A DNA stretch of 64,000 bases. It comes from Mesoterricola silvestris. GTDB taxonomy: Bacteria; Acidobacteriota; Holophagae; Holophagales; Holophagaceae. The notes below the pieces were generated by a model, which did not search any database, was not told the origin of the DNA, and saw only the letters and a program-made list of their open reading frames with translations. Shown one piece after another: positions 30,823 to 35,381 of the stretch (positions are counted from its first letter, which is position 1; every line of letters begins with the position of its first letter). A program made the position numbers and the translations under genes. The stretch is from positions 930,001 to 994,000 of the forward strand of contig NZ_AP027080.1 in NCBI RefSeq assembly GCF_030295405.1, read 5' to 3'.

Positions 30823-32355
30823 ATGCAGCTCAGCCAGTACCGCCAAGTCCGCATCGAGAAGCTGGAAAAGCTCAAGGCCCTGGGCCTGGACGTTTGGCCC
30901 CGCAAGGCCGAGCGCACCCACGGCATCGGGGAGCTCCTGGAGGCCCACGACCGGGAGGGGGCCAAGACCTCCGGCGAGGACCTGGAGGCCCTGGGCCAGG
31001 TGGTGAGCGTCATGGGCCGGGTCATCGCCATCCGGGAAATGGGCAAGAGCGTGTTCGCCACGGTCACGGAAATGGGGCTCAAGCTCCAGGTGTACTTCCG
31101 CATGAACGACCTGGCCGAGCCCGGATGGGAGGTGGTCAAGCTGCTGGACCTGGGCGATTTCATCTCCGTCACGGGCCCGGTCATGCGCACGCGCATGGGC
31201 GAACTGTCCGTGCGGGCCCAGCGCATCCAGTTCCTCACCAAGGCCCACAAGCCCCTGCCGGAGAAGTGGCACGGGCTGCAGGACAAGGAGGTGCGGTACC
31301 GCAGGCGCTACCTGGACCTGGTGGCCAACCCCGACGTGCTGCTCACCTTCCAGACCCGCAGCCGCATCCTCGCCAAGGTGCGCGCCTACATGGAGGGCCA
31401 GCGCTTCCTGGAGGTGGAGACCCCCATGATGCAGCCCATCCCGGGCGGCGCAACGGCCCGGCCCTTCGTGACCCACCACAACGCCCTGGACATCCCCCTC
31501 TACCTGCGCATCGCCCCCGAACTCTACCTCAAGCGCCTCATCGTCGGTGGCTTCGAGCGGGTCTTCGAGATCAACCGGAGCTTCCGCAACGAGGGCGTCT
31601 CCATGCGCCACAACCCCGAGTTCACCATGATGGAGAGCTACGCGGCCGGCGAGGACCTGCGGGACGTGATGGTGCTCACGGAGAACCTCTTCGAGACCGT
31701 GGCCCAGCACCTGGGCGCCGTGGAGCGGCCCTTCGGCGTGGACGCCGAGGGCAACCCGCGGCTGATCAGCTACCAGACCCCCTTCCGCCGCATGACCCTC
31801 AAGGACGCCACCGCCCATTTCGGCGGCTTCGACCGGGCCCTCCTGGAGGACCCGGCCCAGATCCTGCGCCTGGCCCGGGAGGCCCACGTGGAGGACGCCG
31901 AGAAGCAGACCTCCGGCGCCCTGCTGGGCGCGCTCTTCGAGCACCACGCGGAGAAGGAGCTCATCCAGCCCACCTTCATCACCGAGTACCCCGTGGAGCT
32001 GAGCCCCCTCACCAAGAACCTCCCCGGCGACGCCCAGTTCGTGGACCGGTTCGAGCTCTTCATCGGGGGCATGGAACTGGCCAACGCCTACTCGGAGCTC
32101 AACGATCCCGTCGTTCAGCTGGAGCGCTTCCAGGCCCAGCTCGCCGAGCGCGAGGCGGGCAACGACGAGGCCATGCTCCTGGACGAGGACTTCATCGAGG
32201 CCCTGGAGCACGGGTTCCCGCCCTGCGGCGGCCTGGGGGTGGGCATGGACCGCCTCGTCATGCTCATGACGGACAGCTCCAGCATCCGCGACGTGCTGCT
32301 GTTCCCCCTCATGCGCCCGGGGACCAAAGGCGCCGGGGACGAGGACGAGGCGTAA
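30823..32355 (+). CDS. lysS: Lysyl-tRNA synthetase, class II
   Basis: 510 residues from the ATG at 30823 (MQLSQYRQVRIEKLEKLKAL), with GGAATGGAG upstream. The N-terminal OB-fold anticodon-binding domain includes VVSVMGRVIAIREMGKSVFA. Class II motifs: motif 1 VEVETPMMQPIPGGATARPF-like region, motif 2 FERVFEINRSFRNEGVSMRH, motif 3 GLGVGMDRLVMLMTDS. It charges tRNA-Lys. The last 47 bases overlap the 3-prime end of the convergent DUF2063 gene, so the C-terminal tail (PGTKGAGDEDEA) is encoded opposite another gene. Confidence 0.96.
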   Translation: MQLSQYRQVRIEKLEKLKALGLDVWPRKAERTHGIGELLEAHDREGAKTSGEDLEALGQVVSVMGRVIAIREMGKSVFATVTEMGLKLQVYFRMNDLAEPGWEVVKLLDLGDFISVTGPVMRTRMGELSVRAQRIQFLTKAHKPLPEKWHGLQDKEVRYRRRYLDLVANPDVLLTFQTRSRILAKVRAYMEGQRFLEVETPMMQPIPGGATARPFVTHHNALDIPLYLRIAPELYLKRLIVGGFERVFEINRSFRNEGVSMRHNPEFTMMESYAAGEDLRDVMVLTENLFETVAQHLGAVERPFGVDAEGNPRLISYQTPFRRMTLKDATAHFGGFDRALLEDPAQILRLAREAHVEDAEKQTSGALLGALFEHHAEKELIQPTFITEYPVELSPLTKNLPGDAQFVDRFELFIGGMELANAYSELNDPVVQLERFQAQLAEREAGNDEAMLLDEDFIEALEHGFPPCGGLGVGMDRLVMLMTDSSSIRDVLLFPLMRPGTKGAGDEDEA

Positions 32356-33109
32356 ACCCGGCCACCGCCTCCCCCAGGGAGGCCAGGAAGGCCGTGACCA
32401 CGGCCAGCTCCAGCCCCAGCTCCCGGGCCGCCCCGGCCACGGTGGCCGCCTGGGCCCGCACCAGGAGGTAGGCCGTGGCTTCCGTCAGCTCCCGCCACCG
32501 GATGAAGCCCTGGGCGTCCCGGCTGGCCAGGAGGTGGCAGGCGCCGGGGCGGGGCGCGGGGGCCTCCCAGGTGGCCTCGTGGACCCGGTGGGCGTAGGTC
32601 AACACCTGGGTGGGCGGCGCCAGCACCAACCGGTCCCCGGGCCGGGGGGAAGCCCGGAGATCCCCCGGGAGGGCTTCGTCCGGAAGGTGTTCCACCAGCT
32701 GCTTCACCAGTTCGAAATGGGCCAGTTCCAGGAGGAAGGGCCACCGCTCCCGCCCCCAGCCCGAGGTGGCCATCCAGCCCAGGAAGGTGGGCGAGATATC
32801 CCGGTAGTAGGGGCTCCGGAAGATGCGCGTGGCCAGGAAGGCGGCCCGGCAGGCCTCCCAGGCCCCGGCCCCCTCCAGCAGCGTGCGGGTGAGGGGGAAG
32901 TCCAGGTCGATGGGTTCCCAGATATCCTCCCGCACGGCGTCCCGGTAGTACAGCAGCCGGCTCCGGAAGCGGCGGAAGGCGGCCCGGTCCCCCTCGGGCA
33001 GGCCCCGGGCCGCGGCGAAGGCGGCCGGATCGGCCTCGAAGGCGCTGGCGTCCGGATCCAGGGCCAGGGCCGCGAGGCTGCGCTGCAGGGCGAGGACCGG
33101 GTCAGGCAT
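32309..33109 (-). CDS. DUF2063 (HvfC/BufC-like) partner protein of an MNIO enzyme
   Basis: 266 residues. The N-terminal ~95 residues carry the DUF2063 signature (LALQRSLAALALDPDASAFE...FRRFRSRLLYYRDAVREDI), a putative peptide- or DNA-binding helical domain; the second half (ARLTEATAYLLVRAQAAT-like) resembles the winged-helix-like C-terminal part found in HvfC. In characterised RiPP systems this partner works with the DUF692 enzyme and binds the precursor. The ATG at 33109 lies inside the end of the DUF692 gene (8-base overlap). The 3-prime end overlaps lysS on the opposite strand by 47 bases. Confidence 0.8.
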   Translation of the reverse strand: MPDPVLALQRSLAALALDPDASAFEADPAAFAAARGLPEGDRAAFRRFRSRLLYYRDAVREDIWEPIDLDFPLTRTLLEGAGAWEACRAAFLATRIFRSPYYRDISPTFLGWMATSGWGRERWPFLLELAHFELVKQLVEHLPDEALPGDLRASPRPGDRLVLAPPTQVLTYAHRVHEATWEAPAPRPGACHLLASRDAQGFIRWRELTEATAYLLVRAQAATVAGAARELGLELAVVTAFLASLGEAVAGFTPRPRPRRLWSPGA

Positions 33110-33929
33110 GGGCGCCCAGCACCTGGTCGTAGACCTCCTGCAGCGCGGCCCGCTCCGCCAGGAGCTCCGCCAGGGGCGGGATGGCGTTGTCCCGCTCCAG
33201 CAGCACCGGCACGGGCCGGCCGATGCGGGGCAGGACGAAGCGCAGGAGATCCACCACCGGATCGGCCACGGGCGCGCCGTGGGTGTCGATGACCAGATCC
33301 TCGTAGCGGTCGTGGCCGGCGATGTGGATCTGGGCGACGCGGTGCAGGGGCATGCCCTCGAACCAGCGGTACGGGTCGAAGCCGAAGTTCAGGGAATTCA
33401 CGTAGACGTTGTTGATGTCCAGGAGCCAGCCCGCGTCGGCCCCCTCCAGCACCTCGGCGATGTAGGCCGCCTCGTCCATCTCCGATTCCCCCAGTTCGGC
33501 GTAGTAGGTGACGTTCTCCAGGAGGAAGGGCACCGGGAGCCTTGGCTTGAGCTCCCGCACCCGGGCGGCGGCGTGGCGCGCGGAGGCCCGGGTGAAGGGC
33601 ATGGGCAGGAGTTCGTGGGTGGTGGCGCCGTCCACGGAGGTGAAGCAGAGGTGCTCCGAGTGCCAGGGGCTGCCGGATTCCAGGAGGAAGGTGGCCAGGT
33701 CGGCCAGGTAGGCGTCGTCGAAGGGGTCGAAGCCGCCCACCGAGAGGCTCAGGCCGTGGGAGATCACCGGGTCCCGCGCCAGGATGGCGCGGGTGAGGGC
33801 GGCGGTGCGTCCCCCGTCCCCCAGGACGTTCTCCGGGGCGATCTCCCAGAAGGGCACCGGCACGGCCTGCCGGGCCACCTCCTCCAGGTGGGGAAGGCGC
33901 AGGCCCAGGCCGACCCCGGCCAGGGGCAT
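33102..33929 (-). CDS. MNIO/DUF692 multinuclear iron RiPP-modifying enzyme (HvfB/BufB-like)
   Basis: 275 residues from the ATG at 33929. It is a TIM-barrel of the DUF692 family: GVGLGLRLPHLEEVAR at the N-terminus, PVPFWEIAPENVLGDG, SHGLSLSVGGFDPFD, WHSEHLCFTS, PFLLENVTYYAE, WLLDINNVYVNSLNFG, IHIAGHDRYEDLVIDTHG and PVLLERDNAIPPLAEL. The His/Asp/Glu residues in SHGLS, EHLCF, LLENV, DINN, HIAGH, DTHG and LLERD are the family iron ligands. Known members convert precursor cysteines into thio-oxazole-type heterocycles. It follows the Cys-rich precursor gene by a single base and overlaps the DUF2063 gene, forming a three-gene operon. Confidence 0.92.
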   Translation of the reverse strand: MPLAGVGLGLRLPHLEEVARQAVPVPFWEIAPENVLGDGGRTAALTRAILARDPVISHGLSLSVGGFDPFDDAYLADLATFLLESGSPWHSEHLCFTSVDGATTHELLPMPFTRASARHAAARVRELKPRLPVPFLLENVTYYAELGESEMDEAAYIAEVLEGADAGWLLDINNVYVNSLNFGFDPYRWFEGMPLHRVAQIHIAGHDRYEDLVIDTHGAPVADPVVDLLRFVLPRIGRPVPVLLERDNAIPPLAELLAERAALQEVYDQVLGAHA

Positions 33930-33930
33930 C

Positions 33931-34212
33931 TCAGTGGCCCCAGCCGCAGCGGGGCTGGGTGGCGCAGCGGCGGCCGCAGCGGGGCACCCCCGCGCATCGC
34001 CGTCCGCACCGCGGGATGCCCGCACAGCGGCGCCCGCCGCAACGGGGCACCCCCGCACAGCGCCGGCCGCCGCACAGGCCCTCCACGGACGCGGTGAGGA
34101 CGGTCTGGCCCTCCGGGGCGACCTCCCGGGCGGAGAGGGTGGGGGCGGGCGCGGCCGGAAGGGCCGAACTGGCGGCGAAGAGGGTGGCGATTCCGATGAG
34201 TTTGGTGATCAT
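33931..34212 (-). CDS. Bufferin/HvfA-like Cys-rich RiPP precursor with RRCAG(V/I)PRCG repeats
   Basis: 93 residues from the ATG at 34212, which is right for a signal peptide (MITKLIGIATLFAASSALPA-AP). A short acidic spacer leads to an EGLCGG motif at 44-49, like the EGxCG signature of bufferin precursors. The rest is a repeat array: CGGRRCAGVPR, CGGRRCAGIPR, CGRRCAGVPR, CGRRCATQPR, ending CGWGH; nine cysteines at 47, 52, 58, 63, 69, 73, 79, 83 and 89. Arg is about as frequent as Cys, unlike the Lys/Gly-rich known forms. The TGA is one base from the DUF692 start. Export and Cys modification for copper binding are inferred from context. Confidence 0.85.
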   Translation of the reverse strand: MITKLIGIATLFAASSALPAAPAPTLSAREVAPEGQTVLTASVEGLCGGRRCAGVPRCGGRRCAGIPRCGRRCAGVPRCGRRCATQPRCGWGH

Positions 34213-34430
34213 GGTGCGCTCCGCGCGGCGCTGGCCGCACTGGGATCCCTGGGGATCCGAAGGGGATGGGGGCCCGGCGTGCCGCCAGGCCTGGGTGCGG
34301 GGACAGGGTTGTTGTCCATGGATAACGTACCGAATTTCACCCCTATTGATCGGGTGTCGACCACGGCTACTTGAGGCCAAATTCCCTATTAAAATTCGAT
34401 TAAATGGTTGTTTCCACACGCATTTTAAAG

Positions 34431-34496: not shown

Positions 34497-35381
34497 TCAG
34501 TTGCCCGCAGGTTCCTTTGCTTCGGCCGGGATCGCGATAGGGGCCGGCCGGGGCCAGTCCACCACGGCCTGGTTGAGGCGCTCCCAGTGGCCCTTGAGGG
34601 GGACCCGCTCCTGGACGAATTCCATGCCCTTGGGCACCAGGCGGATCAGGTGGTCGCTTCCCGCCCGGTAGTAAGCGAGGCGGGTGCGCTGGCCCCTGCG
34701 GTTGGCCTTGAAGGGGAAGAGCCAGTGGCACCGGGGCCCCTCAGCGGCGGGCTCGATGCCCTTGAGATCGGCCTTCATGGTGGTGGCGCCGTGGGCGCCC
34801 ACGATCCACATCTGGTGCTGGCCGGGGCGGGTGTAGGCCAGCTGCTCGGTGCCGTTGCCCAGGAAATCACCCGTGGCCGCCAGGAGGTTCTGGTCCACGG
34901 CCAGGTCGCTGGTGTCGGCGGGGATGAGCTCGCACCGGGCGGTTTCCGCGCCCTTCTCGAAATGGCCGGCCACGAAGCCCTGGGCGGGCTTGGGGAGCCG
35001 GGCCGCGTTGGTGAGCACCTTCCAGCCGGGCGCGCCCCGGCGGGCGTGGATGAGATCCGAAACGCCCGTGCCGGTCATGTCCAGGGGGACCATGAAATCC
35101 CCTTCCCCCAGGCCGCCCAGGTCCGCCGGCTCGCCGCCCCCGGGGGCGGCCAGCATGGGGAAGGCCATGCCCTCGGCCGAATCCTGGGCCACGATGCGCA
35201 GGGCCCCCTTGTCCATGGCTTCGATGCGCTGGAGGGGGGGCAGGGGGTGGATCGCCCCCTCGCCCTGGCTGTCGGGAGCGGGCTTGAAGACGCCGTGGAG
35301 GAGGGCGTGGGTGGGAGGTGGGGCGGCGTGGGCGGTGCACAGGCCTGCGGCCAGGGCGGCCCCGAGGAGGAAGCGTTGCAT
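34497..35381 (-). CDS. Exported protein of unknown function (294 aa) with FG-GAP-like segments
   Basis: No family is certain. A signal peptide (MQRFLLGAALAAGLCTAHAA) is followed by segments such as DFMVPLDMTGTGVSDLIHAR and ATGDFLGNGTEQLAYTRPGQ, whose D-x-T/L-G-x-G pattern recalls the FG-GAP/VCBS calcium-binding blades of integrin-like propellers; two or three blades can be seen. Two cysteines at ~150 and ~218 are far apart. The GGAGCACCGTC before the ATG supports the start. It is divergent from the chemoreceptor gene across 255 bases and ends at a terminator. Confidence 0.65.
   Translation of the reverse strand: MQRFLLGAALAAGLCTAHAAPPPTHALLHGVFKPAPDSQGEGAIHPLPPLQRIEAMDKGALRIVAQDSAEGMAFPMLAAPGGGEPADLGGLGEGDFMVPLDMTGTGVSDLIHARRGAPGWKVLTNAARLPKPAQGFVAGHFEKGAETARCELIPADTSDLAVDQNLLAATGDFLGNGTEQLAYTRPGQHQMWIVGAHGATTMKADLKGIEPAAEGPRCHWLFPFKANRRGQRTRLAYYRAGSDHLIRLVPKGMEFVQERVPLKGHWERLNQAVVDWPRPAPIAIPAEAKEPAGN

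Follow-up and report, generated by a model that had tools for sequence, protein, structure and literature searches.

A genus-level arginine-type Cys-array precursor beside an MNIO enzyme, a probable variant of the thiooxazole copper-peptide class

The window analyzed here, a stretch of 64,000 nucleotides, carries a short operon in the gene order precursor, MNIO enzyme, DUF2063 partner. Judged from sequence, this locus belongs to an established kind of RiPP, of which it is a selected Arg variant at genus level. By analogy with characterized clusters, we favor (at a probability of roughly 0.6) the reading that the three genes encode an Arg-type variant of the thiooxazole copper-peptide class (captophorins; the oxazolin/fontiphorin type), and 5-thiooxazoles would probably form at its Arg-Cys-Gly/Ala sites. 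The match between enzyme and substrate is the interesting part of the locus.

RESULTS

The precursor gene encodes a Cys/Arg array

The precursor gene consists of a leader and a core.

33931..34212, minus strand: gene for the 93-aa precursor, a Sec-signal-like leader followed by a Cys/Arg core; ORF read from the sequence
34075..34212, minus strand: leader, 46 codons, with a short hydrophobic stretch and a linker; by its sequence a probable Sec signal
33949..34074, minus strand: four-unit array CGGRRCAGVPR, CGGRRCAGIPR, CGRRCAGVPR, CGRRCATQPR
34074-34042 (11 aa), 34041-34009 (11), 34008-33979 (10) and 33978-33949 (10), minus strand: the array units
33934..33948, minus strand: C-terminal CGWGH, carrying the ninth Cys

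The minus-strand frame 34212-33931 translates to MITKLIGIATLFAASSALPAAPAPTLSAREVAPEGQTVLTASVEGLCGGRRCAGVPRCGGRRCAGIPRCGRRCAGVPRCGRRCATQPRCGWGH. As the initial annotation had described, it contains nine Cys, and each of the four units carries an Arg pair. The annotated unit lengths, two of 11 and two of 10 residues, were also correct, but the units form blocks in the order 11, 11, 10, 10 and do not alternate. The start of the array had been placed after EGLCGG, which counts CGG twice; the actual junction is EGL-CGGRRCAGVPR. Tandem Repeats Finder reported the array at 33965-34070 with a period of 30/33 and matches of 69-71%. Growth by duplication followed by loss of a Gly codon had been proposed, but third codon positions match in only 20-60% of cases between units, which are therefore not recent copies. 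The 11-11-10-10 layout recurs in a congeneric genome (G004) and a second one (G001) has the Gly-short form only, so that Gly gain and Gly loss are indistinguishable.

When the 50 core residues were shuffled 200,000 times, no shuffle placed Gly or Ala after 9/9 Cys together with Arg before at least 8/9. The dN/dS values (below) and the codon-position pattern back the precursor frame; a wrong frame or a chance array was ruled out by the conserved leader, the codon-position pattern and the shuffles. The leader start, MITKLIG.ATLFAA, resembles the starts of ordinary Holophagaceae precursors (e.g., MITKLIGAATLFAAGS), and the leaders are homologous, including the hydrophobic N terminus, although the n-region is without K/R in G004 and G001. 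The precursor matched no Pfam family, DUF2282 included, at E up to 1. The AlphaFold model of the precursor was poor (mean pLDDT, 48.8) and was not used.

The array is confined to one genus and is under selection

A search of 60 relatives found strong precursor relatives only within the genus of the window's own genome (G000; 4,994,678 bases, one contig), in G004 (1.5e-37) and G001 (1.7e-16); pieces at contig ends were found in G002 (2.5e-12) and G005 (1.6e-9). The draft contigs of G005 (L160 and L161) and G002 (L159) stop inside or beside the array, probably through an assembly break at the repeat. No precursor relative was found in G003, the sixth genome of the genus, and no plasmid homologues were found. 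Weak precursor matches in other genera were rejected as simple repeats or chance frames on reading, not Arg-Cys arrays. The single MNIO of G003 (L018/L131) is distant, with a precursor of the Cys-Lys type only; with it, the genus holds at least four MNIO lineages.

G004 and G001 match G000 on both sides of the operon, which indicates a shared chromosomal place. G002 matches on the second flank only (the side of a 294-aa gene and accC-like genes), and the flanks of G005 are split over two contigs. The genes at these flanks are presumably a lysyl-tRNA-synthetase-like gene on one side and, with the 294-aa gene, accC-like genes on the other.

The three full-length precursors (G000, G004 and G001) align, with nine Cys in each. 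Arg directly precedes Cys at 23/27 sites, and G/A directly follows at 27/27. The initial annotation had named the Arg pairs as a feature to compare beside close DUF692 homologues: Arg before Cys is retained, but strict Arg pairs are not, with HR in unit 4 of G004 and both RT and HR in G001. Between G000 and G004, dN/dS was 0.14/0.54 in the core versus 0.25/0.45 in the leader; between G000 and G001, it was 0.28/1.11 versus 0.49/0.67. These ratios are approximate, as the core dN rests on 13 and 22 nonsynonymous changes, respectively. No Cys was lost in either comparison, and each Cys still precedes G or A. The lower dN/dS of the core points to purifying selection, and the earlier view that the array is selected is supported. 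MNIOs 91% and 72% identical to that of the window adjoin the same array, where random C termini beside such close enzymes had been named as the contrary outcome. As far as these comparisons of sequence reach, the Arg-Cys array is old and selected. The window's single EGLCG is not kept in G004, G001, G002 or G005, and EGLCG as the sole modified site was ruled out by this absence.

One reading of the array is that the change from Lys to Arg and the loss of acids are functionless drift under G+C pressure, or mark a decaying array. The core is indeed 83% G+C compared with 71% for the window, but the core encoded by this genome's second cluster contains 21 Lys and 0 Arg, the dN/dS of the Arg-type core is below that of the leader, and nine Cys are present in 3/3 full copies. 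Since the second cluster of G000 is Lys-rich, drift by G+C was ruled out; we regard this reading as a whole as very improbable.

The Arg-type core departs from ordinary Lys-type precursors

For comparison, a table of MNIOs was assembled in which 117 of 136 loci were kept after removal of short, N-containing and identical sequences (L192 and L193 are one and the same place). A script found the precursor for 92 of the 117; the 25 misses include the Arg-type MNIO of G005, cut off by a contig end. The 34 other distinct Holophagaceae precursor cores beside related MNIOs, that of a second cluster in G000 among them, contain 0 Arg, 10-35 Lys and 2-22 acids, and the Arg design is, as first noted, unusual: the Arg-type cores (n=3) contain 12-14 Arg, 0 Lys and 0-1 acid, being acid-free in 2/3. 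An acid stands at -3 at 1/27 Arg-type sites versus 128/190 in the 34 other Holophagaceae precursors, and at 392/392 Cys sites of 52 non-Holophagaceae precursors. Lys is found at -1 at 0/27 Arg-type sites. Pro is found at -2 at 11/27 Arg-type sites (4/9 Cys in the window array) versus 0/582 in the other two sets.

Positive charge per Cys was 1.22-1.56 in the three Arg-type cores versus 1.08-2.75 in the 34 others. On these counts, the departure is in the kind of basic residue, the missing acids and Pro, and not in positive charge as such. The initial annotation had taken a strongly cationic array as unexpected for a simple copper buffer. This argument fails because charge per Cys lies within the family range, relatives also being net positive. 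It had suggested instead binding of an anionic partner or a membrane-active peptide; on this view, the partner could be lipopolysaccharide, nucleic acid or polyphosphate, and the modified Cys would be secondary. Charge per residue is in line with this, at 0.22-0.28 in the Arg type versus 0.09-0.22 in other Holophagaceae; it equals or exceeds the highest other value (0.224) among the 89 cores compared, and two of the three cores are acid-free, with Arg throughout and no Lys. However, charge per Cys does not stand out within the family, ionized thiooxazole sulfurs would cancel much of the charge, each Arg array retains its Cys-G/A sites, and no export, immunity or peptidase gene was recognized between the conserved neighbors. 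No support was found for an anionic partner or for membrane activity, and we consider this proposal improbable.

G000 has a second MNIO cluster, at C1:3845533 (L002), with an ordinary Lys/Asp precursor, and Arg- and Lys-type clusters are both present in G000, G004 and G005. In a Lys-type cluster of G004 (L016), a radical SAM/SPASM gene lies between precursor and MNIO (363-1758 of the locus; C1, about 530-531.6 kb). It matches PF04055 and PF13186 and reaches 111.6 bits with the SbtM model TIGR04082, the cutoff of which is 350. A similar radical SAM-like gene precedes the MNIO of L138 (G062), and the MNIOs of L016 and L138 are sisters.

MNIO relatives were found in 98/396 Acidobacteriota genomes. 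In these 396 genomes, the double CGRRCA motif occurred only in G000 and G001, under a strict pattern that misses G004-like arrays and with G004 outside the sample. A further 40 MNIO places outside Holophagaceae were compared (41 rows, with one duplicate); 38 of the 41 rows gave script-picked precursors, of which some are doubtful. No Arg-Cys array was among these Acidobacteriota precursors, which are Lys-rich, DUF2282-like or Gly/Ser-rich Cys peptides. The MNIOs of L221-L225 and L227 follow Gly/Ser/Cys-rich precursors with almost no Lys/Arg near Cys, and some of those precursors have long N-terminal membrane segments. The Arg-type variant was not found in the literature searched, the supplementary tables of which may hold such a precursor; the main text of PMC13097082 contains none of "Arg-Cys," "RCG," "arginine" or "Acidobacter."

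The MNIO enzyme has changed at the probable FonB Arg16 equivalent and at other sites

The gene that follows the precursor encodes the enzyme, and the reported adjacency to a DUF692 gene was confirmed.

33102..33929, minus strand: MNIO enzyme, PF05114 at 289.6 bits (over the cutoff), beginning 1 nt past the precursor stop
33894..33896, minus strand: MNIO residue 12 (Leu), the putative counterpart of FonB Arg16 by alignment
33798..33803, minus strand: MNIO residues 43-44 (Ala-Ala), His-Arg in most other Holophagaceae
33546..33548, minus strand: MNIO residue 128 (Lys), K/R in 4/4 Arg-type and Gln in 109/109 [DE]GxCG-type MNIOs

The enzyme missed the HvfB/BufB equivalog cutoffs of NCBIfam (NF003818, 257.5 versus 360; NF050167, 254.2 versus 310). 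Its model has a pLDDT of 93.8, and the nearest solved fold is 3bww (TM, 0.82). Residues H58, H93, E138, D171, N174, H202, D215, H217, E245 and D247 are invariant in 42/42 sequences (alignment A1); the iron ligands are presumably among these His, Glu and Asp residues. In the tree, all four Arg-type MNIOs group in a single clade (100/99), apart from the Lys-type MNIOs of their own genus.

Putative equivalents of FonB Arg15/16 and Asp249/Phe250 were assigned from the GLGLRR...ERDF spacing and the text of PMC12668002; the spacing is 234 residues in 13/64 rows and 235 in 50/64. Residue 12 is L, P, L and L in the Arg-type clade, whereas 105 of the 109 [DE]GxCG-type MNIOs have R/K there, 3 have G or S and 1 has a gap (L018, L060, L064 and L137 were excluded from this set as other types). 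Residue 44 is A, A, A and D in the Arg type versus R in 46/46 other Holophagaceae and K/R in 49/63 more distant sequences. Residue 128 is K/R also in 6/41 rows of the more distant Acidobacteriota MNIOs. Residues 12 and 44 are mostly nonbasic outside the [DE]GxCG type, so the Arg-type enzyme resembles MNIOs with acid-free substrates. Exceptions run both ways: R12 is lost and the acid motif kept in L136 and partly in L126 and L040 (residue 12 is Gly in L136 and L126), and R12 is kept in 10/41 rows of other Acidobacteriota MNIOs, the precursors of which mostly lack an acid at -3. In these alignments, then, residue 12 is not decisive for use of the acid motif. The number of clade-specific changes was dropped as a sign of special selection, because the 11 changes of the Arg-type clade fall within the 6 to 18 of five other multimember clades; what counts as evidence is solely which sites changed.

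Partner gene and upstream region

Three further features surround the enzyme and precursor genes.

32309..33109, minus strand: PME1-type partner protein carrying DUF2063 and NGO1945_C domains, overlapping the MNIO gene by 8 nt
34301..34317, no strand assigned: inverted repeat GGACA-N7-TGTCC, a possible operator, about 105-109 nt before the ATG
34497..35381, minus strand: secreted-looking 294-aa protein, a conserved upstream neighbor and probably a separate gene

The partner matched PF09836 (34.1 bits) and PF22106 (31.0 bits), both over the cutoff, and missed the HvfC equivalog of NCBIfam (NF050145, 87.2 versus 142). Precursor, MNIO and DUF2063 partner make up the core set of bufferin and oxazolin clusters described in PMC12452194. 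Docking of an acidic partner onto the cationic core was rejected: the Arg-type DUF2063 proteins (n=4) are less acidic, with net charges of -1 to -8, than most of the 46 other partners. These range from -20 to +54, with most values between -9 and -19 and extremes that probably reflect wrong frames picked by the script. The 294-aa neighbor was matched in all five genomes with the Arg-type locus; it has no family over the cutoff in Pfam and none in NCBIfam.

The inverted repeat lies before the Arg-type precursor in G000, G005, G002 and G004 (one mismatch). It is a single copy in G000, and none of the other Holophagaceae upstream regions compared contains it; this restriction to the Arg-type cluster makes separate control of the two clusters plausible. 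It also bears on the proposal that the operon handles a metal other than copper, or forms a mixed thiooxazole/free thiol site of different affinity, in a job distinct from that of the Lys-type cluster. Retention of both cluster kinds in G000, G004 and G005, upstream regions that differ by a repeat found before the Arg type only, and the Pro that occupies -2 at half of the sites in the array would agree with such a division of labor. However, no metal gene was recognized in linkage with the operon, and the repeat is missing in G001 and has no known regulator; we consider a distinct metal job rather unlikely.

DISCUSSION

If the locus is an Arg-type variant of the thiooxazole copper-peptide class, the precursor would be translated with the Sec-like leader read from its sequence, and the DUF2063 partner and MNIO would bind it, as gene order and homology suggest. 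The MNIO would then oxidize Cys between Arg and Gly/Ala to 5-thiooxazole with loss of 4 H each, as in characterized relatives, and the product would reach the periplasm and bind Cu(I) via the thiooxazole sulfur. Copper protection, export and periplasmic Cu(I) binding would be expected from oxazolin, fontiphorin and the bufferins, as described in PMC12668002, PMC13419390 and PMC12452194. Arg would replace the Lys before Cys of EGKCG motifs, giving the counter-charge. The acid at -3 has disappeared, and so has the enzyme arginine modeled to hold that acid in FonB.

In PMC12668002, substrate Glu1 is modeled between FonB Arg15 and Arg16, and FonB R16A had lower turnover with charged position-1 residues. 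FonBC, in the same study, rejects Arg at position 1, tolerates Arg at position 3, requires a small residue at position 5 and rejects Pro everywhere. By analogy, these rules would fit 5/9 sites of the window array, namely, Cys 1 (EGLCG) and Cys 2, 4, 6 and 8 (GRRCA). Cys 3, 5, 7 and 9 (xPRCG) have Pro at -2, which FonBC rejects. Given Pro at these four PRCG sites, 5 to 9 Cys would be modified, and the ligand set may be a mixture of thiooxazole and thiol. Unless this enzyme accepts Pro, thiooxazoles and free thiols would alternate along the product. Because Pro at -2 was seen only in the Arg type, the chemistry may differ there. Counting against the thiooxazole reading, FonBC did not accept a FonA variant that carried Arg at position 1 (PMC12668002), and the NCBIfam cutoffs for HvfB, BufB and HvfC were missed. 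A more far-reaching version, in which the locus is a separate MNIO metal-peptide lineage whose polycationic Arg-Cys substrate changed along with an enzyme that gave up its acid-holding arginine, alternating RRCA thiooxazoles with PRCG thiols and doing a job unlike that of its Lys paralogue, is possible but unlikely.

The locus provides a natural test of how MNIO enzymes choose Cys. The FonB Arg16 site, named by laboratory work as the Glu holder, has been lost in a clade whose substrates have lost Glu. As for Pro, rejected by the laboratory enzyme, either it is accepted at half of the sites in the array or it flags Cys that stay unmodified. The presence of Lys-type and Arg-type operons in one genome permits direct swaps of substrates and enzymes.

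Among known systems, the Buf1/DUF2282 bufferins resemble the Arg type in having an MNIO and a DUF2063 partner. The Arg-type precursor is without DUF2282, and Buf1-like precursors are without a tandem array. The KCYGIAKAGKNDC precursors (Leu at residue 12) are, we assume, Buf1-like. The Buf2/Cys-Lys bufferins (CKGKGGCK, from other Acidobacteriota) mostly lack Arg12 and have no acid at -3, as in the Arg type, but they have Lys after Cys, belong to a different clade and in many cases have Asp at the FonB Phe250 site. Closer to hand, the second cluster of G000, which is of the captophorin type, has the same gene order, a similar leader and an MNIO 67% identical to that of the window; its core differs in being of the DGSCGK type, with 21 Lys, 12 acids and 0 Arg. 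Captophorins are products of an MNIO and PME1 with 5-thiooxazoles that bind Cu, and the Arg type is likened to them by its genes. The Buf_EGKCG/oxazolin precursors (Haemophilus oxazolin, fontiphorin and gonophorin), as described in PMC12452194 and PMC12668002, are built of 5- or 17-residue units, in contrast to Arg-type units of 10/11 residues with two Cys. The Arg type lacks the EGKCG repeat and the acid at -3, carries Arg where those precursors have Lys, and has Pro two residues before Cys at half of the sites in its array; its enzyme is without the Arg16 equivalent. The leader of the Arg type is probably Sec-like, as theirs is. Both have tandem Cys motifs, with a small residue after Cys and a basic one before it, and in both the MNIO and DUF2063 genes come next.
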